Shown here one piece after another: positions 5,720 to 21,420 of a stretch of 27,305 nt of DNA. The notes below the pieces were generated by a model that saw only the letters and a program-made list of their open reading frames with translations, did no database searches and had not been told where the DNA came from. The position numbers and the translations under genes were made by a program. Every line of letters begins with the position of its first letter. Position 1 is the first letter of the stretch. The stretch spans positions 1-27,305 of IMG/VR virus record IMGVR_UViG_3300033144_000611; one strand, written 5' to 3'. The DNA is from a virus.

Positions 5720-6094
5720 ATGGATTTAAAAAGAGATGAGATTAAGTATGTAAGGGATTTATCTAAGAGCGCATATAAAAAAGCAAATGCTTGTTATATA
5801 TGTGGCGCGGAAGAAGAATTACAATTTCATCACTTTTATTCAATGACTTTGCTTTGGGCAAAGTGGAAGAAAGATGAAGGTGTACGTATTAATAGTGTGG
5901 AAGATATATTAAAGTATCGTGAGATTTTTAAAGAAAAATTTCAAGATGAAATATATAATAAAACTATTACGTTATGTAAGTTTCATCACATGGATAGGCT
6001 ACATAAAGTCTATGGAAAAGTACCAGCACTAATAACAGCCCCTAAACAGGAACGTTGGTGTGACAAACAAAAAATTAAATTTCAGGAGAAATAA
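5720..6094 (+). CDS. HNH-type endonuclease, probably assisting DNA packaging
   Basis: A 124-residue protein with the zinc and catalytic layout of small HNH nucleases: Cys25-x2-Cys28 (CYIC), His37-His38 (FHHF) and a second pair Cys86 with His89 and His90 (LCKFHH), then His95 in DRLHKVYG. The N-terminal part is basic. In many long-tailed phages a small HNH protein is encoded close to the terminase and portal and stimulates terminase cutting at the packaging site (HK97 gp74 is the studied case). Its position just upstream of the portal fits that role. A free-standing homing endonuclease is the main alternative; against that, it is a tightly packed member of the operon, five bases after the previous stop, with the same codon style as its neighbours. 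Confidence 0.75.
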   Translation: MDLKRDEIKYVRDLSKSAYKKANACYICGAEEELQFHHFYSMTLLWAKWKKDEGVRINSVEDILKYREIFKEKFQDEIYNKTITLCKFHHMDRLHKVYGKVPALITAPKQERWCDKQKIKFQEK

Positions 6095-6299: not shown

Positions 6300-6752
6300 A
6301 TGGTTAAATGGATAGATAGTATATTAGAAAAACTAAATCCAGCTCAGCCAGAAATAGTAGACGATTTTGGGCAAGATATCGCACCCTCAAGGAATCACTA
6401 TAATAACCAGAAGGCTTACAACACAGTTGGTACTGTTGGTAGAGGAGTTGACTTAATAGTTGATTCAGCGGCTGGCATTAAGATCGATGTTGGGGAAATA
6501 CAAGATTGGTTCACTTCTGAAACAAGAATTCGGAAGAAAAAACTAAATCAGTTACTCAATTTCAGACCTAATCCGTATCATAGTGCAGATGTATTTTTTA
6601 GAAATATATACACAGATTTAGTACTTGAAGGAGATGCATTTATATACTTTGATGGTGTATATTTATATAATCTTCCAGCACTTAAAACTGAAATTATTAC
6701 GGATAAGAAAACTTATATAAAAGGATATACATATGGAGAAAGCAAACATTAA
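6300..6752 (+). CDS. Portal protein, N-terminal part (HK97-type, broken frame)
   Basis: 150 residues matching the first half of an HK97/T5-type portal, the dodecameric ring through which DNA is packaged. Recognisable elements are an N-terminal region followed by YNTVGTVGRGVDLIVDSAA, then LLNFRPNPYHSADVFFRNIY, then LVLEGDAFIYFDG and VYLYNLPA, in the usual order for portals. It stops at TAA 6750-6752, shortly after the sequence where portals normally carry a segment of the type E-I-x-H-I-x...G-x-S-x-L. That segment is absent; the next frame resumes at NINLLMSMNDFQ. Together the two frames encode about 371 residues, whereas T5-type portals have about 400, consistent with roughly 30 lost residues plus a frameshift. 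It is either a real split gene, a defective prophage lesion, or a sequencing or assembly error. Confidence 0.8.
   Translation: MVKWIDSILEKLNPAQPEIVDDFGQDIAPSRNHYNNQKAYNTVGTVGRGVDLIVDSAAGIKIDVGEIQDWFTSETRIRKKKLNQLLNFRPNPYHSADVFFRNIYTDLVLEGDAFIYFDGVYLYNLPALKTEIITDKKTYIKGYTYGESKH
6721..6735 (+). promoter_or_regulatory. Shine-Dalgarno and start of the portal C-terminal frame
   Basis: AAGGA at 6721-6725 is followed after seven bases by ATG 6733-6735. This is one of the better-spaced sites in the window, and it would allow the C-terminal portal frame to be translated independently although it lies inside the N-terminal frame. The frame-1 reading is open only from 6721 (TAA at 6718-6720), so any shift between the frames must happen within 6721-6752. 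Confidence 0.5.
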
Positions 6753-7398
6753 CTTATTAATGAGTATGAATGACTTTCAGAAGAATTTTTTTGATAACTC
6801 AGCAGTACCTGGTATTATTCTTAAAACTCCTAATCCTTTATCGGATAGAGTTAAAGATAGAATGGTTCAGCGTTGGATGTCAAAATATAACCCGCGTAGT
6901 GGAGGCAAAAGACCACTAATATTGGATGGTGATTTCTCAGTTGAATCATTGTCAAAATATAACTTTAAGGAACTTGATTTTTCCGAAAGCATTAAGACGC
7001 AAGAAAGCGCGATACTTAAAGCTTTAGGTGTTCCACCGTTATTACTAGATTCTGGTAACAATGCAAATATTAATCCAAACTTAAGAATGTTTTACATTAA
7101 CACAGTAATGCCGTTAGTAAATAAAACTATACAAAGCTTGGAATACTTCTTTGGCTATGATTTAAAAGCTATAGAACAAGATGTATTAGCACTACGACCA
7201 GAACTTAGAGAATCTGCCAATTATTTTAGTACTTTAGTTAATGCTGGTATTATAACTAGAAATGAAGCTAGAGATAAATTGAGATTTGAAGTATCAGATA
7301 GTGAAATAGCTGATGATTTAATACTTCCTGCTAATATAGCTGGTAGTAATGTAGATTCAACACAAGGAGGAAAACCTCCCAGTAAAGAGGACCCTTAA
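6733..7398 (+). CDS. Portal protein, C-terminal part (HK97-type)
   Basis: 221 residues covering the second half of an HK97/T5-type portal: DFQKNFFDNSAVPGIIL, then RMVQRWMSKYNP, KRPLILDG, LDFSESIKTQESAILKALG and the strongly conserved VPPLLLDSGNNANINPN followed by a TVMPLVNK helix. It ends in a Ser/Pro/Gly-rich tail (GGKPPSKEDP). It overlaps the N-terminal frame by 20 bases and lies in the +1 frame relative to it. ATG 6733 has a usable ribosome binding site, but the first residues of a normal portal C-half would be preceded by a conserved His- and Gly-containing segment that neither frame encodes. It sits directly upstream of the protease-capsid gene, as expected for a portal. Function as a separate chain would be unusual. 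Confidence 0.8.
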   Translation: MEKANINLLMSMNDFQKNFFDNSAVPGIILKTPNPLSDRVKDRMVQRWMSKYNPRSGGKRPLILDGDFSVESLSKYNFKELDFSESIKTQESAILKALGVPPLLLDSGNNANINPNLRMFYINTVMPLVNKTIQSLEYFFGYDLKAIEQDVLALRPELRESANYFSTLVNAGIITRNEARDKLRFEVSDSEIADDLILPANIAGSNVDSTQGGKPPSKEDP

Positions 7399-7401
7399 AT
7401 T

Positions 7402-9351
7402 ATGAAGATAAATAAAAATATGCACCTTACATCAACATTTAAAGTGAAAGCCATAAGTGAAGATAAAGAGAGTGTGAAAATTGAAGGATATGCAAATACC
7501 ACTACTAAAGATAGAGCTGGTGATGTAATTATTGAAGAAGCATGGGCAAAGGGAGGATTAGATAATTATCTTAAAAATCCAATTGTACTTGCTTTTCATA
7601 ATCACGAGAAACCTATCGGAGAAGTTACTGAGTATAGCATTAATCAACAAGGTCTACGAGTTGTAGCAGAAATCAGCAAGTCCGCTGGTGATGTTTATAA
7701 CTTAGTAAAAGAAGGAGTACTAAAAGCTTTTTCAGTAGGGTTTAGAGTCAAAGATGCCGACTATGATTCTGAAACTGATATCTTTGTTATCAAAGATCTC
7801 GAACTATTTGAAATTTCAGTAGTTAGTGTTCCAGCAAATGCCGAATCTGTATTTTCTGTAAAGAAAGCCTTTGAAGACGAAAACGAGTATAGTAAGTTTA
7901 AACACTTATTTAATAATGAAAATATCCAGGATCCAGAAGTAACTAAAGCAGTTATAGAAGATACTGAGAATAAAGGAGAAGAACCTGTGGATAAAGATAA
8001 ACTTTCTTTAACGCCTCAAGAAATTGAAAAATTGCAAAAAGATGCAGTTGAAAAAGCATTTGCTGCTAAAGCGGCTGACGATAAGAGAAAAGAAGAAATT
8101 TCAACTATCGCAACTAACGCTGGAACATCCGGTGCAGAACTATTAATAAAAGAACTAGAAGATAGACTTTTAGTAAAAGAAAATACAGTACAGGAAACTT
8201 TAACAAGTTTACAAACTGAACTTAAAGAAAAACAAGATGAAATCATTAAGCTAACTAATAGCAAAATGACTTTCCAAGATAAACGCTCAAACGTTCAAGT
8301 TAAGCAAGCTGAAATCGATAAATTCGTTTTAACTTCTAAAATTATGAACAAGAGTATTGCAGAATTAGATGCATATAAAATGTATGTTGAAAAAATCGGT
8401 GATCACTTAGGTGGCATGGATTCTGGTGGTGCTGGAGACGGTAGTGACTGGGAAACTTTATTCTCAACTAGTTTATATGAAGATATGAAGGATAAATTAG
8501 TAGTAGAACCATTGTTTAACAATAGAGTTACAATGAATTCTAGAACTTTAGTATTCCCATACAATCCAGAAGCAGGACACGCATCTTGGGTAGCTGATAC
8601 AGCATATAAATCTACAAATGGTGATTCATCTGGTGTTGCTAGAACACATTTACCAGGCGATAATCTATTAAAAGCTGAGAAATTAGCTTCTAAAGAATAT
8701 TTAGGTTATGAAGAAGAAGAAGATTCAATCATCGCGATTGCTCCTATTGTTCGTAATGCTATTGTTCGTAGAATGTCTCGTACAACAGATACTGAATTAC
8801 TTCGTGGTAATGCTGGTGTTGAAACTATTGCTGGTCAAACAGGTTTAGCTTTAATTACAGGTGTTGCAACTTTCGCAACAGATAATAGTGCTTCAGTAAC
8901 TCAAGATGGTACATTTGGTGCAGCTAATCCAGTTACTATTGCTGACTTACAAGCTACACGTAGAAAAATGGGAGCTTACGGTCTTAATCCTAGTGAAGTT
9001 GTTTACTTAGTTAACGAAAGCGCGTATTACGATTTAATGGATGATCCTGATTTCCGTACTATGGATTTAGTTGGCGAAAATGCTACTATCTTACGTGGTC
9101 AAATTGGTTCCGTTAATGGTTCTCCAGTAATTATATCAGATACATTTGCTACTGCAGCAATTGGTACAGTAGCTGCTGTTGCATTAAATGCATCACATTA
9201 CTTATTTGGTGAATTACGTGGTATGAGAGTTGAACGCGACGTAGATATTGAAAACCAAAAGAACGTTTTAGTTGCTACTCGCAGATTTGCGTTTAATGAA
9301 TTAATTCCAGGAGCTACAAGCTCTGCAGCATTAATTTACCCAGCATCATAA
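7402..9351 (+). CDS. Prohead protease fused to HK97-fold major capsid protein
   Basis: 649 residues. Residues about 8-155 are a herpesvirus/HK97-type prohead serine protease: candidate catalytic His66 or His68 in AFHNHEKPIGE, Ser111 in KAFSVGF and Glu137 in ELFEISVVSVPANAE. Residues about 196-330 are charged and helical, a delta or scaffold region with coiled-coil character that is normally cleaved off during maturation. From about residue 340 (WETLFSTSLYEDM) the HK97-fold capsid domain runs to the end, with VEPLF, ADLQATRRKMGAYG and a C-terminal DVDIENQKNVLVATRRFAF. Protease-capsid fusions are known in some phages, but in T5 these are separate genes. ATG 7402 follows GAGGA at 7387-7391. Codon use changes within the frame: protease glycines are mostly GGA, capsid-domain glycines mostly GGT, with CGT arginines appearing only in the capsid part. 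Confidence 0.9.
   Translation: MKINKNMHLTSTFKVKAISEDKESVKIEGYANTTTKDRAGDVIIEEAWAKGGLDNYLKNPIVLAFHNHEKPIGEVTEYSINQQGLRVVAEISKSAGDVYNLVKEGVLKAFSVGFRVKDADYDSETDIFVIKDLELFEISVVSVPANAESVFSVKKAFEDENEYSKFKHLFNNENIQDPEVTKAVIEDTENKGEEPVDKDKLSLTPQEIEKLQKDAVEKAFAAKAADDKRKEEISTIATNAGTSGAELLIKELEDRLLVKENTVQETLTSLQTELKEKQDEIIKLTNSKMTFQDKRSNVQVKQAEIDKFVLTSKIMNKSIAELDAYKMYVEKIGDHLGGMDSGGAGDGSDWETLFSTSLYEDMKDKLVVEPLFNNRVTMNSRTLVFPYNPEAGHASWVADTAYKSTNGDSSGVARTHLPGDNLLKAEKLASKEYLGYEEEEDSIIAIAPIVRNAIVRRMSRTTDTELLRGNAGVETIAGQTGLALITGVATFATDNSASVTQDGTFGAANPVTIADLQATRRKMGAYGLNPSEVVYLVNESAYYDLMDDPDFRTMDLVGENATILRGQIGSVNGSPVIISDTFATAAIGTVAAVALNASHYLFGELRGMRVERDVDIENQKNVLVATRRFAFNELIPGATSSAALIYPAS
7973..7989 (+). promoter_or_regulatory. 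Internal Shine-Dalgarno and GTG start for the capsid part
   Basis: AAGGAG at 7973-7978 lies eight bases before an in-frame GTG at 7987-7989 (codon 196 of the fusion). It falls in the linker between the end of the protease domain (about residue 155) and the delta region, the one place where an internal start would release a complete capsid precursor without the protease. The motif is encoded by Lys-Gly-Glu codons, so chance is possible in purine-rich linker sequence. Confidence 0.5.
7987..9351 (+). CDS. Predicted separate major capsid precursor from internal GTG
   Basis: If translation starts at GTG 7987, the product is 454 residues: delta region (starting MDKDKLSLTPQEIEKL) plus the whole capsid domain. 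This is almost the length of the T5 major capsid precursor (pb8, about 458 residues, with a removable N-terminal delta domain). It would solve the stoichiometry problem of a fusion, since hundreds of capsid subunits but far fewer proteases are needed per head. Supporting signs are the strong ribosome binding site and the codon shift toward GGT and CGT downstream of it. The concept resembles lambda C/Nu3, where an in-frame internal start within the protease gene makes the scaffold. It remains a prediction; the fusion alone could also suffice. Confidence 0.5.
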   Translation: MDKDKLSLTPQEIEKLQKDAVEKAFAAKAADDKRKEEISTIATNAGTSGAELLIKELEDRLLVKENTVQETLTSLQTELKEKQDEIIKLTNSKMTFQDKRSNVQVKQAEIDKFVLTSKIMNKSIAELDAYKMYVEKIGDHLGGMDSGGAGDGSDWETLFSTSLYEDMKDKLVVEPLFNNRVTMNSRTLVFPYNPEAGHASWVADTAYKSTNGDSSGVARTHLPGDNLLKAEKLASKEYLGYEEEEDSIIAIAPIVRNAIVRRMSRTTDTELLRGNAGVETIAGQTGLALITGVATFATDNSASVTQDGTFGAANPVTIADLQATRRKMGAYGLNPSEVVYLVNESAYYDLMDDPDFRTMDLVGENATILRGQIGSVNGSPVIISDTFATAAIGTVAAVALNASHYLFGELRGMRVERDVDIENQKNVLVATRRFAFNELIPGATSSAALIYPAS

Positions 9352-13311: not shown

Positions 13312-13722
13312 ATGGATTTAAGCACATTAATTGTACCAATTTCAAAAACATCAATAGAGTATCCAGGATGCCCAGACTTTTGGGTTGAACTAGCATACTT
13401 AACTAAAGATGAGTTAATGAAACTTAGAGATAAGTGTACAAGTCAAAAATTAGATAGAAAAACAAGACAAATGAAGGAAGATGTTGATAGTGACCTTTTC
13501 CAAAAGTTATATATAGAAGCTATTGTAGTGGGTTGGAAAGGACTTAAAATTTCTTACTTAAAATCTATGATTCCAGTTAACTTATCTGGTATTGAAGATA
13601 TAGAAGCTGAAGTAGAATTCAGCCCAGAAAATGCAGAGTTACTAATGAAGAATGGTGTAGACTTTGATAACTGGGTAACTTCAGTATTGGATGATGTTGA
13701 AAATTTTACCAAAGTCAGCTAA
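13312..13722 (+). CDS. Tail assembly chaperone, unshifted product (lambda G-like)
   Basis: 136 residues, mainly helical in its second half, with a conserved-looking start (LIVPISKTSIEYPGCPDFWVELAYLTKDELMKLRDKC) and the segment IVVGWKGLKISYL, typical of the first of the paired chaperones encoded between tube and tape measure. These proteins coat the tape measure during tail assembly and are not in the finished virion. ATG 13312 follows AGGAG. The frame ends at TAA 13720-13722, a few codons past a slippery heptamer, so most ribosomes should make this short form. Confidence 0.75.
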   Translation: MDLSTLIVPISKTSIEYPGCPDFWVELAYLTKDELMKLRDKCTSQKLDRKTRQMKEDVDSDLFQKLYIEAIVVGWKGLKISYLKSMIPVNLSGIEDIEAEVEFSPENAELLMKNGVDFDNWVTSVLDDVENFTKVS

Positions 13723-14099
13723 TATTAATAGAGACTAAGTTAAGAAACTTCTACAATAACTCAGCAGTTAAAATGACTACTGAGAAATATTTTATGATGT
13801 GTGAACAATTAGGCAAAGAGCCTTTAGAAGAGGAAGTACCTGCAACCTTTGAGGATTTCCCATACGTCGTACAAACAGCTATGAATATTCACGCGGTCCT
13901 CCCAGATAAGTGGGAGGGCTTCAGTGGTACATATATGGGAAAAGAATATGTATTACTTCCATACTTAGCTGATGTAGTATATAAGGTTGACAATAAAGCA
14001 CAATTAGTACAGTTCGTTACTTTAATAGATAGAATAATTACAGAGTATAGAGCTGCAGAACAGAAAATAAGACAAAAGAAAAACAATAAGAAAAAATAA
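13312..14099 (+). CDS. Tail assembly chaperone, -1 frameshift product (lambda GT-like)
   Basis: A -1 slip on AAATTTT (13701-13707) joins the first frame to the one running to 14099, giving 132 + 130 = 262 residues. The second frame is closed by TGA at 13698-13700 and open from 13701 onward, so it overlaps the first frame only over 22 bases, and the slippery heptamer sits right at the start of that overlap. The joined part begins YQSQLILIETKLRNFYNNS and continues with MTTEKYFMMCEQLGKEP, acidic and aromatic patches and a Lys-rich end. An ATG at 13773 could start the second part separately, but it has no convincing ribosome binding site and lies in a hairpin; it also omits the 22 residues that precede it in the open frame. 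Confidence 0.75.
13701..13707 (+). promoter_or_regulatory. Slippery heptamer for programmed -1 frameshift
   Basis: AAATTTT in the zero-frame register A-AAT-TTT fits the X-XXY-YYZ rule, allowing AAT to AAA and TTT to TTT re-pairing after a one-base backward slip. It occurs at the only place where the two chaperone frames overlap. Confidence 0.75.
13760..13784 (+). other. RNA hairpin covering the second chaperone ATG
   Basis: CTCAG (13760-13764) pairs with CTGAG (13780-13784), then after one mismatch AGTT (13766-13769) pairs with GACT (13775-13778, one G-T wobble) around a five-base loop. The hairpin contains ATG 13773 and would tend to mask it. At over 50 bases from the slippery site it is too far to be a classical frameshift stimulator. 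Confidence 0.35.
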
Positions 14100-14118: not shown

Positions 14119-17100
14119 ATGGCTAAGCAGTATACCCAAAGATATACACTGAAAATGAATGCTGAAGGCGTTCAAACTATAACTAAAGAAGTTGTTCAAA
14201 TGAATTCTGCTTTAGGTACATCAAGTAGTGCAGTTAAAGGAACAACTGACGCCTTTAAAAATGCTAAGAAAGCTCAAGATCCATATCTACGTGGATTGAA
14301 AGGTGCCGGTGGTGGTACAAATAACCAAAGTAAGGCCTTTTCTAAAATGGCTCAAGGTATGAATGGCACACTTGTGCCTGCATACGCCACAGTAGCAGCA
14401 AACGTCTTCGCGTTAACAGCTCTATTTGGCGCACTTAGACGAGCGGCAGATTTTGATATATTAACTAAATCTGCTGAGACTTATGCCGTACAAACCGGTA
14501 GATCCTTAACTGGATTAAGTCAGTCTATGAAAGACATTACAAACAACGCAATAACTATGAAAGAAGCTTTAACTAGTGCTAGCATAGCTGCGTCTGCTGG
14601 TTTTGACAATTCAACTATTGAGAAACTAACACAAGTTGCTAGAAACGCGTCAGTAGCCTTAGGTAGAGATATGACTGACTCTTTAGATCGTGTATTCAAA
14701 GGTGCTATTAAAGCGGAACCAGAATTACTAGATGAATTAGGTATTATACTTAGATTAGATCCAGCAGCTAGAAAATATGCTGCTTCTATAGGTAAGTCTG
14801 TATCTGCTTTAACTACATTTGAGAAACAACAAGCGGTTGTTAACGAAGTAATTGAACAAGGTGAAGAAAAATTTAGTGAATTTAGTAATGTAGATGTGAA
14901 TGCATTTACACAATTAGGTTCTGCGTTTACTGATATTAGTGTAGCTATGTTACAATTAATTAGTACACCACTTGTACCTATTATTAAATTTATATCAGAT
15001 AACGTTGTTTTATTAACAGCAATTATAGTTTTATTTGCAACTTCTGTTGCAAAAAAAGCATTTCCAGCATTAGAGAATTTTGCTAAAGTAATGGAAACGA
15101 AGTTTGTTAAAGCTACCGAAACTGCAGCAGACGCAACTATAAAAGCACAACAGACTAATGTTAATTGGGTAAAAAGTCTGCAAGGTACAACAAAAGCAGT
15201 ATCTAAAACTTTAGATACATTTGAGCGTGGGGTATTCCAAGTTAGTGATGTAGTAAAAAAAGAAGGTGTTAAAATAAGTAAAAACTTTAAAACTGCTTTT
15301 ACACCTGGACCAACTAGCCTTAAAAAATTAGAAGCTTATAAGAAAGGGATACAAGGAGTTCTAACAGCATTTAAGAGAGGCACTAATGTGTCTCAAGGTT
15401 TTAAAAATACAACTAAAAATATTGCATTTTTAAATGAAGAACTTGGTGAAACTAAAACAGTTATAGAACAAGTTAAAAATCAGTCTATAACTACTCAGAA
15501 TAGATTTCAAGCATTTGGCGCAGGTGTAACTGCGTCATTCACAAAAGCTAAATTTGCCGTTGTATCTTTTGGTAGTGAGGTTTCAGCAAGTTTAACTAAA
15601 GGTGCTTTATCTGGATATCAACATGGATTAGTGGGTGTTAAAGATGAATTAAGATTCACAATAGAAAGGTTCAAAGGATTTACTAGAGTTGCTAAAGTGG
15701 CTAGTGTAAGTATAGCTGGATTAGGTGGAGCATTTTTAAAATTCCTACCTATATTAGGCTTACTAACTGCTGCTTGGTCAATACTATCATCTGCGTTTGG
15801 ATTTATAAAGGAAGCTTTATTTGGTAAAGAGTTAGTAGATTTATCAGAAACTTTAGAAAATAATACAGAAGCTTTAGAAACAGCAGCTAAAAGTGCTGAA
15901 CTATTTGCAACTAAATTAAGCAAATTACCAACTACTATTGATAATGTAGCAAAAAGCACATTATTACTAGCTAATACATTCGGAGCACTATCTGAAAACC
16001 TAACTAAAACTTTGGAAGATCTAACTCTTCTAGGTGGGTTTGATGATGCTGATGAATTTTTAGATGCATTTAGCTTTGGAGATTTAGATGAATTCAAAGA
16101 TCAATTAGATAGTACATTTAAAGCAATGGCTAGATTTGGTGAGTTAGAGGGTGTTAATAAAATACTTGCTAAATTTGGCGAAATATCTAGACTATCTGGT
16201 GCAGAAGCTAGAAAAGCTGCGGGGGAACTACTAAAATTAATCAATATTTCTAGAGACGTTGCTCGTAGCGCAAATGACCTAAATACTTTAGTAGGTGAGG
16301 CATTTGAAGGATTGGGTAAAGGTTTACTTGCAATAGATGGTGGATTACCTGCGTTAACTGGTATTGAACAAGGTTTTCAAAAATTACAACTTATATTAAA
16401 TACATTAGATGTAAAAAATGTACATTTAGTAGCTTCAGTGATTACTAATTTAACACACTTTGAACTTAGAGAACTGGGTTTAAGTGATATAGCTAAAGAA
16501 ATAATAGAGATTAATAAACCTTTAGACGATTTTACATCTAAGTTAATTGAAGCAGACAAAAGATTAAAAATATTAACAGCACAAAGAAAAAGAGCATCAG
16601 AATTTAGAGAAGGTACTGCTCAACGTGCAGGTATTGAGGGTCTTATAAAGAAAAACTCAGCAGAATTCTTCAAATTAACATTGCAAGTAGCTGGATATAC
16701 TGGTTTAATAGATGGAGTTACTGCAAGACTTAAAAAGCAATCAGCAGGTATTATTAAACAATTAGATATAGTTAATGAAAAGTTTAAAAAAATAACAGAA
16801 GCACAAAAGAAAATAGCGGATATTAGAGATAAAAACGCAATTTCCAATTTAGAACAGGGAGCAGGCTTAGATAAGAGATTAGATTCTTTAAAAAGAATAA
16901 CCGATGCTGAAAATGAATACTTAGAAACAATAACCTCTAATACTAATGATAGTTTAACAAGTATTAATAAAGCTATTGATGATGTACAGGAAAAAATAGC
17001 TGCAAATACTACAGGTAAACCGGATGCAGGTTTAGCAGATGAGCAGTCTAAAAATTTCGGTAAGAAACAACAAATAGAAAATAAATTAATAGAAACTAGA

Positions 17101-20100
17101 AGTAAAATTACAGCTAATTTAATAAAACAAGTAAAAACGTTGCAATCAGAACTAAGTAAAACTACTAAATTGGCTGCGGCAGGTTTAACTGTGTCTAAAG
17201 AACAGGCAGAAACTGTTGAGAAAGATTTATTTGATGCTTTAGTAAAGGTTGGCTTACAATCAGGAAAAAATGCAATGGAAGCTGCAACGTTCGCAAGTAA
17301 AATGACACTTGCTAGTGTAGCTGCAGAGAGATTAAATGCATTTTTACAACAAGCTAGAATTCCAAGTGTGGAATCTTTAGTATCTAGTATAACTGGATTA
17401 GAGGCTAGAGCCAATGTTTTAAAAGAAGAATCAAACTATTTAGAAAAGCATAATACTTTAATAGGTGAGAGAGTAGACAAAGAATTAATACTAGCACAAC
17501 TAGAAAATCAAAGAAGAGCTAATAGAGTTCAAACTGAATTAACAAGTGCCCTTGCTACAGATCCAAAAGGTTCAAAAAAGATAACTACGTTGCAGAATAC
17601 CCTAGAAGCTTTAAAAAAAGAAAATGCACAACTTAAATTAGTACAAACTGCAGTAATAAAAAGTGCAGCAGAAAAATTAACTAATAAATTAAACAGAGAA
17701 ATAAAATTTCAAAAACAAATATTAGATCAAGGTATACTAATAACAAAAGCTAAACGTGATGAAATTAAATTAGAAAAAGAACGTCAAGATTTACTAGCTA
17801 AAGGATTTAAAAAAGAAGCAGCTAATTTAATAAAACTTACTAAATTAAAGCAAGATCAAGAATACCAAAAAGAGTTTAATAAGGAGATTGCTGATACTAT
17901 AGAAAATATGTCTAAGTTTTCTAGTATAATAAATAAATTAAATGATGATAAAGATAAATTAGGTAAAGATCAGCAAATTACTGCCAGTTTCAAAGCTTTA
18001 GGCGACGTAGCTGCTGCTGCTGGTGATAATATGGGTAAAGCATTTGCTGATATGGGATTATTACTTAATGTTTATAATAAAAAGTTATCTGAAGGTGGAA
18101 TGAAAGCTAAAGAGTGGTCAGCATTTACTATGTCAGCACTTGGAGCAATGTCTCAATTATTTGAAGAAGGTTCTTCAGAAGCTAAAGCCCTTATGATAGC
18201 ACAACAAGCATTAGCTGTAGTTAATGCTGTAGCATCAATAGCGGCCGCAGCTACAAGTGGAGACCCATACACGGCTCCAGCTCGTGTAGCACTTATGTTA
18301 GGTTTAATGTCATCAGTATTAGGGTTAGCAAATATTGGATTAGGTGGAGTTTCAGGTGATGGTGGAGAGAAAGCTTACTTAGATAGTATAAGTGAGCAGG
18401 GATTAGTAGGTCAACGCGATTTACAATCAAATACCTTAATAGATTCAATAGAAGATTTAGTGGAGATAGATACAGAATTGTTCTCTACTAATAGAGATCT
18501 TCAGTTAACATTAGTTAATTTAAATAAAACATTTTCTAAAATTGGTGCTTCTTTATTTAATCAAGCAGGTAATTTTGGGGCTGGAAATATAGCTGATTTA
18601 TTTGGTAAAACCTTTGGAACACAAGGTGGTAGTACATCTATATCTCTAAAATCTATAGGTAAATTATTAGGTGGAGGAGCAGGGGGATTTGGTTCATCAA
18701 CTTCTGTATCTAATAGATTAGTAGATGCCGGTATACAGCTATCAGCATCTATAGAATTTGTTAATGGAGAGCTTATAACTTCACTTACTGATGCATCTTT
18801 CTTTTTAATAGAATCAGTAACTGTCGTAAAGAAAAAATTCTTTGGAGCATCAAAGAAAACAAGTACTTATCTTAGAACAACTTTTAAAGATATTGAAAGT
18901 AGTTTATTAGATGAGTTAGCTAGAGCTATATCTAGAATAGGTGGTGTAGTATTTGGATTATTTTCAAGTTTTTCCAATATAATAGATTTAAATTTAACTA
19001 ACTTATTTGCGGGACTTGGTACATTAGCTTTTGATGATTTAAAAATTAGTTTAACTGGTAAAGATGCTGAGGAACAAGCAGAAGCTATTGGGGCATTTAC
19101 TTCCTTATTATCTGCTACACTAATAGAATCATTGCTTCCAGCAATAGGTATATTCTCTTTAGCAGGTGAAGAATTTATTGATACATTGATAAGAATAACT
19201 GAAAATATTTGGAAGATAGAAGGTTCATTTAGTACTTTAGGAATGTCTATTAGTTCATTTGTAGATGTTTCAAGTTTAAATGCTTTAGATCCAAATACAC
19301 TTTTTGAAGAAGCTTTTGGTGGTACAGAAATAGATACTTCATTTTTAGAAAGTATAGGTGTTTCATTTGGAGAAACACTAAGTTTCTTCGAAACTGTAGC
19401 AAGATTTGCAAATGCTCCAGCTGGTTTTGGTAACCTGGGTGGTTTCTTAACTAAACAAGTAGAAAATTTCTTTTTTGCATTCTTTGATGAAGCTACAATT
19501 AAAAAGAATATAGCATCAGCTATTGAAGCTATGAAAATAGCTGTTATAGCCGCTTGGGAAGAAGAATTCTTAGCTAACTTTAAAGACTTCGATGAATTTA
19601 ATGCTATATTTGAGAAATTTTCTGAAACATTATATAATGAAACAGAACTAGCTCAATTAGCATTAGAAAATGCAGGTAATATTGTAGGTAATGGATTTGC
19701 AGCACTTAGATCTTCTTTAGAAGATGCAGGTGCTACAGACTTACTTGAGTTATTAGATAGTGGTGGAGCGTCAGAAGCAACACTAAGATCAATATATGAA
19801 CTTGGGTCTGAGTTAGGTACTTTTGCTGCAAGATTCGATGTAGCTACTGGTGAGATTGATACTTCCGGCGCAGACTTACTTGCATTACTTATTCAACTAG
19901 GTGCTGCAATGGGTCAAGAAAACGACGCAGCTGAAGACTTATTAGATGCATTAGATAACTTAAATCAACAATATGAAAGACAAATTGCATTATTCGGTTT
20001 AGTTGGAAAAGAATTAGATTTATTACAATTAAGTTTTGACTTTTCTGATGCTTTAATAGAAGCAGAAGAAACAGGTACTAATATAGCACTAGTTGAAACA

Positions 20101-21420
20101 TACTATGGATTAGAACGCCTAGATATTATTAGAAGATATAACCAAGAAATAGTAGATTTAATAGAAGAAGGTATGAAAGGTATAAATGATTCTATACTAT
20201 CAGTACTACAATCTGCAGAAGGTTGGGATGAAGTAGCTTATCAAAGTATACAGGTAGCTAAGCTAGTAGATAAGTTAACGGCTAGTCTAGGTAATTTAGG
20301 TTCTGGGATTGATTTCTCAGTATTTTCTAGTTTATCAGATACTTCTGAGTTTCTTGAAACATTAGAAAACTTTATAGATATTACAGTTAGTAGTGGGGAA
20401 TCTATAACAGATCAAATTCTTTTAGTAGAAGAATTACGCACAGCTGTAGTAGCTAGATATGAAGCGGAAGTATCTGCTGCTGAGGAGTTAGAGGGTAGTA
20501 TCTATGATTCAATCTCAGCTCTTCGAGACTTATCTGAAGAGATAGGTAGCTTCTTAGATGACTTATTTGTTGGTGATTTATCACCTTTAACAAATGCTCA
20601 AAAGTTAGCTGAAGCACAAACACAATTTGATGAAAACTTACAAAATGTACTATCACAAGATACAGCACTAGCAGAATCTGCTAGAGACGATCTGTTAGAA
20701 AGTGCATCTACATTACTAGAATTAGCTAACTTATTCTTTGCTATAGGCCCAGAATACCAAGCAATATTTAATAATGTAGTTGGTTCTTTAGAATCAATAG
20801 ATCAAAGTATATTAGATGAGATTGGAATATCAGAAGAAACATTAGCTATTCAATCATTAGAGTCAACATTAACTGAGTTACAGTTACAAACTATATCTCA
20901 ATTACAAACATTAGATTCAATACTGGTAGCTTTAGAAGATCAAAATACTATTAACTTAAATAATGAATTATCTTTATATGTTCCAGAAATTATTAATAGC
21001 TTAGATACTATAACAACTAAACTAGAGCAAGTAAATAATGATTCATGGAATCCTATATTACAACAATTAATTACTCTAAATAATACAATGAGTAATTTAA
21101 GTTCTTATGGTAAGGGTTCTGAAGAAATAGGGTTTGACCAAGTAGCTATGATACATAAAGGTGAAACAATATTAACAGCCGATACTTCCGAAGCAATTAG
21201 AAGTGGAGAAACAATATATGGATCATCCGATGTATTAACAAGTGGTAGTACTAGTGGTAGTAATGCAGATGTTGTATCTGCTATACAAGTATTAACACAA
21301 GTATTAGCAAATGGTCAAGAAGATATAATAGATAAAAATGAAGAAATCAGACAAGCTACACAAGGTTTAAGTACTGATATAAATGTTTCTAGACCAGCAA
21401 GTGCAAAAGGTATAATATAA
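14119..21420 (+). CDS. Tail tape measure protein (very long)
   Basis: 2433 residues, the largest gene here. It follows the chaperones, as expected. The N-terminal 250 residues contain a recognisable tape measure domain (MKEALTSASIAASAGFDNS, LGRDMTDSLDRVFKGAIKAEPELLDELGIIL). Hydrophobic stretches occur at about 284-306, 538-563 and 1355-1410 (MIAQQALAVVNAVASIAAAA and onward), the kind that can enter the host membrane during DNA ejection. Residues about 800-1320 are Lys/Glu/Gln-rich coiled coil. The later half is acidic and helical. Near the C terminus VAMIHKGETILTADTSEAIRSG (about 2341) is a motif I associate with tape measure ends in many phages. By the usual 0.13-0.17 nm per residue the tail would be roughly 320-400 nm. 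No lysozyme or peptidase motif was found by eye. AAAGGG lies before ATG 14119. Confidence 0.9.
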   Translation: MAKQYTQRYTLKMNAEGVQTITKEVVQMNSALGTSSSAVKGTTDAFKNAKKAQDPYLRGLKGAGGGTNNQSKAFSKMAQGMNGTLVPAYATVAANVFALTALFGALRRAADFDILTKSAETYAVQTGRSLTGLSQSMKDITNNAITMKEALTSASIAASAGFDNSTIEKLTQVARNASVALGRDMTDSLDRVFKGAIKAEPELLDELGIILRLDPAARKYAASIGKSVSALTTFEKQQAVVNEVIEQGEEKFSEFSNVDVNAFTQLGSAFTDISVAMLQLISTPLVPIIKFISDNVVLLTAIIVLFATSVAKKAFPALENFAKVMETKFVKATETAADATIKAQQTNVNWVKSLQGTTKAVSKTLDTFERGVFQVSDVVKKEGVKISKNFKTAFTPGPTSLKKLEAYKKGIQGVLTAFKRGTNVSQGFKNTTKNIAFLNEELGETKTVIEQVKNQSITTQNRFQAFGAGVTASFTKAKFAVVSFGSEVSASLTKGALSGYQHGLVGVKDELRFTIERFKGFTRVAKVASVSIAGLGGAFLKFLPILGLLTAAWSILSSAFGFIKEALFGKELVDLSETLENNTEALETAAKSAELFATKLSKLPTTIDNVAKSTLLLANTFGALSENLTKTLEDLTLLGGFDDADEFLDAFSFGDLDEFKDQLDSTFKAMARFGELEGVNKILAKFGEISRLSGAEARKAAGELLKLINISRDVARSANDLNTLVGEAFEGLGKGLLAIDGGLPALTGIEQGFQKLQLILNTLDVKNVHLVASVITNLTHFELRELGLSDIAKEIIEINKPLDDFTSKLIEADKRLKILTAQRKRASEFREGTAQRAGIEGLIKKNSAEFFKLTLQVAGYTGLIDGVTARLKKQSAGIIKQLDIVNEKFKKITEAQKKIADIRDKNAISNLEQGAGLDKRLDSLKRITDAENEYLETITSNTNDSLTSINKAIDDVQEKIAANTTGKPDAGLADEQSKNFGKKQQIENKLIETRSKITANLIKQVKTLQSELSKTTKLAAAGLTVSKEQAETVEKDLFDALVKVGLQSGKNAMEAATFASKMTLASVAAERLNAFLQQARIPSVESLVSSITGLEARANVLKEESNYLEKHNTLIGERVDKELILAQLENQRRANRVQTELTSALATDPKGSKKITTLQNTLEALKKENAQLKLVQTAVIKSAAEKLTNKLNREIKFQKQILDQGILITKAKRDEIKLEKERQDLLAKGFKKEAANLIKLTKLKQDQEYQKEFNKEIADTIENMSKFSSIINKLNDDKDKLGKDQQITASFKALGDVAAAAGDNMGKAFADMGLLLNVYNKKLSEGGMKAKEWSAFTMSALGAMSQLFEEGSSEAKALMIAQQALAVVNAVASIAAAATSGDPYTAPARVALMLGLMSSVLGLANIGLGGVSGDGGEKAYLDSISEQGLVGQRDLQSNTLIDSIEDLVEIDTELFSTNRDLQLTLVNLNKTFSKIGASLFNQAGNFGAGNIADLFGKTFGTQGGSTSISLKSIGKLLGGGAGGFGSSTSVSNRLVDAGIQLSASIEFVNGELITSLTDASFFLIESVTVVKKKFFGASKKTSTYLRTTFKDIESSLLDELARAISRIGGVVFGLFSSFSNIIDLNLTNLFAGLGTLAFDDLKISLTGKDAEEQAEAIGAFTSLLSATLIESLLPAIGIFSLAGEEFIDTLIRITENIWKIEGSFSTLGMSISSFVDVSSLNALDPNTLFEEAFGGTEIDTSFLESIGVSFGETLSFFETVARFANAPAGFGNLGGFLTKQVENFFFAFFDEATIKKNIASAIEAMKIAVIAAWEEEFLANFKDFDEFNAIFEKFSETLYNETELAQLALENAGNIVGNGFAALRSSLEDAGATDLLELLDSGGASEATLRSIYELGSELGTFAARFDVATGEIDTSGADLLALLIQLGAAMGQENDAAEDLLDALDNLNQQYERQIALFGLVGKELDLLQLSFDFSDALIEAEETGTNIALVETYYGLERLDIIRRYNQEIVDLIEEGMKGINDSILSVLQSAEGWDEVAYQSIQVAKLVDKLTASLGNLGSGIDFSVFSSLSDTSEFLETLENFIDITVSSGESITDQILLVEELRTAVVARYEAEVSAAEELEGSIYDSISALRDLSEEIGSFLDDLFVGDLSPLTNAQKLAEAQTQFDENLQNVLSQDTALAESARDDLLESASTLLELANLFFAIGPEYQAIFNNVVGSLESIDQSILDEIGISEETLAIQSLESTLTELQLQTISQLQTLDSILVALEDQNTINLNNELSLYVPEIINSLDTITTKLEQVNNDSWNPILQQLITLNNTMSNLSSYGKGSEEIGFDQVAMIHKGETILTADTSEAIRSGETIYGSSDVLTSGSTSGSNADVVSAIQVLTQVLANGQEDIIDKNEEIRQATQGLSTDINVSRPASAKGII

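Follow-up and report, generated by a model that had tools for sequence, protein, structure and literature searches.

A conserved in-frame start inside a T5-like protease-capsid fusion gene suggests a nested, free capsid precursor

The window analysed here is a virus record of 27,305 bases (IMGVR_UViG_3300033144_000611) that carries a run of head and tail genes. This study concerns one open reading frame (ORF) on its plus strand, at positions 7402–9351, in which a prohead protease, a delta (scaffolding) region and a major capsid protein are fused; all features of this gene given below lie on the same strand. The frame starts with ATG, remains open for 649 codons (649 amino acids) and is preceded at 7386–7393 by a Shine-Dalgarno (SD)-like sequence, AGAGGACC, with an anti-SD duplex energy of -5.8 kcal/mol. 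Residues 13–154 (7438–7863) form an HK97-type prohead protease domain (Peptidase_S78; PF04586, E 6.4e-19), for which the curated cut-offs were exceeded in both PF04586 (69.1 vs 21 bits) and TIGR01543 (72 vs 59 bits). Comparison with homologues identified a hypervariable linker at 7867–7986, whose frame is open in all lineages. Inside this linker an internal SD sequence, AAGGAG (7973–7978; duplex -8.7 kcal/mol), stands eight bases ahead of an in-frame GTG at codon 196 (7987–7989), matching to the base the placement between protease and delta regions given in a preliminary description of the sequence.

Initiation at this GTG would produce a nested ORF (7987–9351) encoding a free delta-capsid precursor of 454 residues, whose alignment with T5-type precursors (458–463 residues) starts close to the N-terminus. 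The preliminary description had considered this length close to that of the T5 precursor, which is 458. The delta region (7987–8409) is homologous to T5 delta and was predicted to be mostly helical, with helices at residues 10–44, 50–90, 107–120 and 128–137 of the internal product in an AlphaFold2 model with a mean predicted local distance difference test score (pLDDT) of 73.5. The model also contains a weak, low-confidence loop at residues 142–150 (8410–8436), which probably marks the region of maturation cleavage; the alignment with the mature T5 chain 5tjt begins at profile position 158 and chain residue 11. The major capsid domain (8437–9348) was assigned to phrog_267, matched the DT57C and T5 capsids by profile, and in the model resembles these capsids, so that by predicted structure it is an HK97 fold (Foldseek against T5/DT57C capsids down to E 2e-22, for 8ho3).

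Relatives of the fusion gene were collected in two scans of IMG/VR viral contigs, the second queried with the capsid part alone so that the fusion itself was not selected for, and nearly all of them consisted of a single open frame. A search of genome contigs added one truncated relative. One viral contig (L010) was exceptional, as its fusion ORF ends at codon 99 past a local duplication-like junction (267–566), a local rearrangement that looks like a mis-assembly. Despite a linker length of 20 to 104 codons and variation at nearly all of its residues, every one of about 105 distinct homologous fusions had, within the linker, an in-frame ATG or GTG following an SD; the case that would have refuted the nested start, a homologue devoid of start codon or SD in this position, did not occur among them. 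The preliminary description had proposed testing for exactly this combination of a conserved SD-start and an unconserved linker. In two of these proteins (L028 and L030) the internal SD-start is placed somewhat farther downstream.

In a test limited to lineages below 60% identity, 31 of 31 possessed the internal SD-start, each with a duplex at least as strong as -5.4 kcal/mol; under a synonymous-codon shuffle that kept the protein and its ATGs, the number averaged 13.8 and never exceeded 20. The SD was spelled by different amino acids (KGE, SEE, IEE, LEK, IKE and KGK) across both codon phases, with spellings that include AAA GGA GAA, AGT GAG GAG, ATT AAG GAG and TTG GAG, indicating that the nucleotides and not the protein are conserved. 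At the column of the window's GTG, valine was encoded by GTG in 11 of 11 sequences, and this was the sole all-GTG column among 23 conserved valine columns. In some relatives (L101 and L108–L112) the linker carried a pair of strong in-frame SD-ATG sites, at fusion codons of about 170 and 231–243 and thus some 60–70 codons apart, an arrangement that could specify two lengths of capsid precursor.

The linker frame contained no stop codon in any of 30 lineages, and stops occurred in 26 and 30 lineages in the other two frames; a frame kept free of stops amid such frames indicates that the fusion is selected. This bears on the possibility that the internal start makes the capsid protein and the upstream part serves as protease only, the fusion being a tolerated read-through or a product cut at once in the linker. 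Such a division of labour would agree with the two separate genes of T5-like relatives and with linker amino acids as unconserved as those of a spacer or cleavage site, but a stop is easily gained and none has been over 20–104 codons, and we consider this explanation unlikely. From these patterns, selection appears to act on the short product as well as on the long one.

Codon usage was scored over the 30 lineages with a fixed set of rare arginine, isoleucine and glycine codons, excluding the SD codons because GGA within the SD raises the upstream rare fraction. The rare fraction was 0.43 upstream of the internal start and 0.15–0.28 downstream of it, with a fall to about 0.16 at the start itself, and the best pooled break fell 6 codons past the start (bootstrap 95% interval -12 to +66). 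The proportion of arginines encoded by CGY rose from 0.26 in the protease to 0.63 in delta and 0.79 in the capsid domain, the capsid exceeding the protease in 30 of 30 lineages. The codon-usage difference over these lineages is decisive, whereas the window sequence alone provides weak evidence (capsid vs protease, p ~0.05). Within the window the rare fraction was 0.46 in the protease part and 0.21 in the delta-capsid part, and the head and tail neighbours checked were protease-like (0.38–0.67). The hand counts of the preliminary description were reproduced, with 6 GGA, 3 GGT and 1 GGG among protease glycine codons and 22 GGT, 4 GGA and 3 GGC in the capsid from 8398. Its observation that CGT arginines lie only downstream of the GTG also held for all 8 such codons, though every one falls within the capsid body, the window's delta region having one CGC and no CGT. 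Scoring against the window's major tail protein was abandoned, as the best break fell elsewhere (t 1.6 at codon 196) and this protein is not clearly a high-expression gene, which makes it uninformative as a reference.

The codon step might instead stem from the composition of the domains or from a mosaic join, and not from unequal output of two starts. The T5 capsid gene is likewise poorer in rare codons than the T5 protease gene, so the step could have been inherited, although the T5 step is itself explained by output because its two genes are translated separately. Its maintenance in 30 diverged fusions (for arginine, in 30 of 30) points to continuing selection, and its onset lies close to the internal start, within delta, and not just in the capsid body; we therefore regard a compositional or mosaic origin as quite improbable. 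Local RNA folding was also weak at both starts (-3.3 kcal/mol at the internal start and -3.8 kcal/mol at the fusion start, in comparison to -7.4 kcal/mol elsewhere in the ORF), and in 29 of 30 lineages the RNA at the internal start was more open than the remaining ORF.

Two further explanations dispense with the internal start. In the first, the 649-residue fusion is the only product, every subunit carries a protease that excises itself, and the internal SD-GTG is a chance occurrence or a relic; this would accord with the published account of MD8 gp5 as a single gene for protease, scaffold and capsid, in which an internal start is unmentioned (PMC8508860). A relic would not be expected to survive in 31 of 31 lineages amid a drifting linker, nor to hold GTG at one valine column or yield a codon step there, and this explanation is in our judgement very unlikely. 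In the second, the SD-like stretch, lying in frame between two domains, is a pause site for translation that gives the protease time to fold ahead of the capsid; a pause would require neither a downstream start codon nor GTG conservation nor a codon step, and this explanation is scarcely credible.

Comparison with phage T5 provides a counterpart for each part of the fusion. The T5 and window proteases are homologous S78 enzymes (49% identity over 160 residues), the 458-residue T5 capsid precursor and the 454-residue internal product align over most of their length, and a profile of 32 internal products matched the DT57C and T5 capsids with E values of 6.5e-76 and 7.9e-74, respectively. Gene order is also shared with the head module of T5 and DT57C (Demerecviridae), in which protease gene 150 is accompanied by capsid precursor gene 149. 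In T5 and its named relatives, however, the protease and capsid genes are separate and 13–17 nucleotides apart, whereas in the window and nearly all of its relatives they form one ORF, and the internal start coincides with the beginning of the separate T5-type capsid genes. A precedent for the nesting is found in phage lambda C/Nu3, where an in-frame internal start within the protease gene yields an abundant assembly partner alone, the capsid protein E being encoded by a separate gene. The window's gene shares with C/Nu3 a conserved in-frame internal SD-start within a longer ORF; lambda nests the scaffold only, while the nested product in the window comprises scaffold and the entire capsid domain.

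Our preferred reading, to which we assign a probability of about 0.88, is that two starts in one frame supply little protease fusion and much free capsid precursor, which co-assemble. This reading draws on sequence evidence for the conserved SD and start, the open fusion frame, the codon step, the weak structure at the start and the homology of the parts, from which we infer use of the internal start, the product ratio, co-assembly and self-cleavage. Initiation at 7402 would give the 649-residue protease-delta-capsid protein and initiation at 7987 the 454-residue precursor, the counterpart of the separate T5 capsid product, which would be the main shell subunit. In HK97 and T5 heads, the delta domain serves as an internal scaffold, with the protease active within the procapsid. 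The scarcer fusion would co-assemble by means of the delta and capsid domains that it carries and, as the protease is N-terminal to delta, would bring this covalently linked enzyme into the procapsid, where it may cut itself and the delta domains. The nested dual-start arrangement advanced in the preliminary description is thus supported by conservation, codon step, low RNA structure and a layout colinear with the stand-alone T5 capsid gene, and its proposed output would be a low-copy fusion and a high-copy capsid.

Fused genes of this kind are already known (NCBIfam NF045540 and NF045541; PMC5513430; PMC8508860), and the NF045541, NF045540 (ClpP-like), PAJU2 and MD8-type genes resemble that of the window in having protease, scaffold and capsid in one ORF. 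The window is not a member of NF045541 (scaf_prot_MCP2), against which it scored 62.6 bits (cut-off 525) over residues 57–286 only. NF045541-like prophage fusions from bacterial genomes, scoring below the family cut-off, exceeded the null for an SD-start at the boundary (0 of 200 shuffles) and showed a codon step in 12 of 12 examined. PAJU2, whose annotation reads prohead protease fused capsid protein and which is cited as a fusion in PMC8306868, has AGGAGG before ATG 197 (duplex -10.8 kcal/mol) and a codon step of 11/35 vs 5/88. The F10/MD8 type has a candidate ATG at codon 220, past the ClpP domain, and in F10 the codon step is small. Protease-capsid fused genes described as unusual are also found in Arthrobacter AM/AU/AN and Gordonia phages and RRH1 (Klyczek et al. 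2017; PMC5513430), whose capsid sequence is unlike that of the window, as the window query gave no matches with useful coverage.

Several results weigh against the two-start reading or its extension. The bootstrap interval around the codon break is wide, and the fusion start likewise has a good SD. The internal SD is the stronger in the window, but over the 30 lineages the two did not differ in strength (p 0.16), so the ratio of products is not predicted by SD strength. Most actinophage fusions possess a boundary SD-ATG that appears plausible by eye, yet in these GC-rich genes the boundary SD-start was no more frequent than under the synonymous-shuffle null.

Elsewhere in the window, the portal gene just upstream of the fusion (6300–7398) is broken at 6737/6738 into two overlapping ORFs by the absence of 89 bases that are present in near-identical contigs (L001–L003), the frame being intact in L003 (400 codons); the gap may be either a genuine deletion or an assembly fault. 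Just 5' of the portal gene lies a small HNH-endonuclease-like protein (5720–6094; phrog_3497/8048). Two adjacent tail assembly chaperone-like ORFs (13312–14099; phrog_313 and phrog_3914), possibly a frameshift pair, precede an ORF of 2433 codons (14119–21420).

Published accounts, including PMC8306868 for PAJU2, treat protease-capsid fusions as simple fusions or autocleaved polyproteins (PMC5513430, PMC8508860); two of these texts, checked for an internal start, mention none, and our literature search, which covered few subscription papers, recovered no description of an internal start for any of them. As far as this literature shows, the in-frame nesting of a whole capsid precursor within a protease fusion appears to be a new combination. 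We lean, with some reserve, towards the broader view that protease-capsid fusions of tailed phages are generally nested dual-start genes with a free capsid precursor and not polyproteins, a minority fusion delivering the protease by covalent co-assembly at a protease to capsid ratio set by initiation alone. The two-start reading makes the specific prediction that initiation occurs at residue 196. If true, it would explain how a phage can fuse protease to capsid, as a large set of uncultured T5 relatives does, without placing a protease on each of the hundreds of subunits in its shell. The polyprotein interpretation of fused genes would then need correcting, as would numerous database entries in which the long product alone is named as capsid protein.
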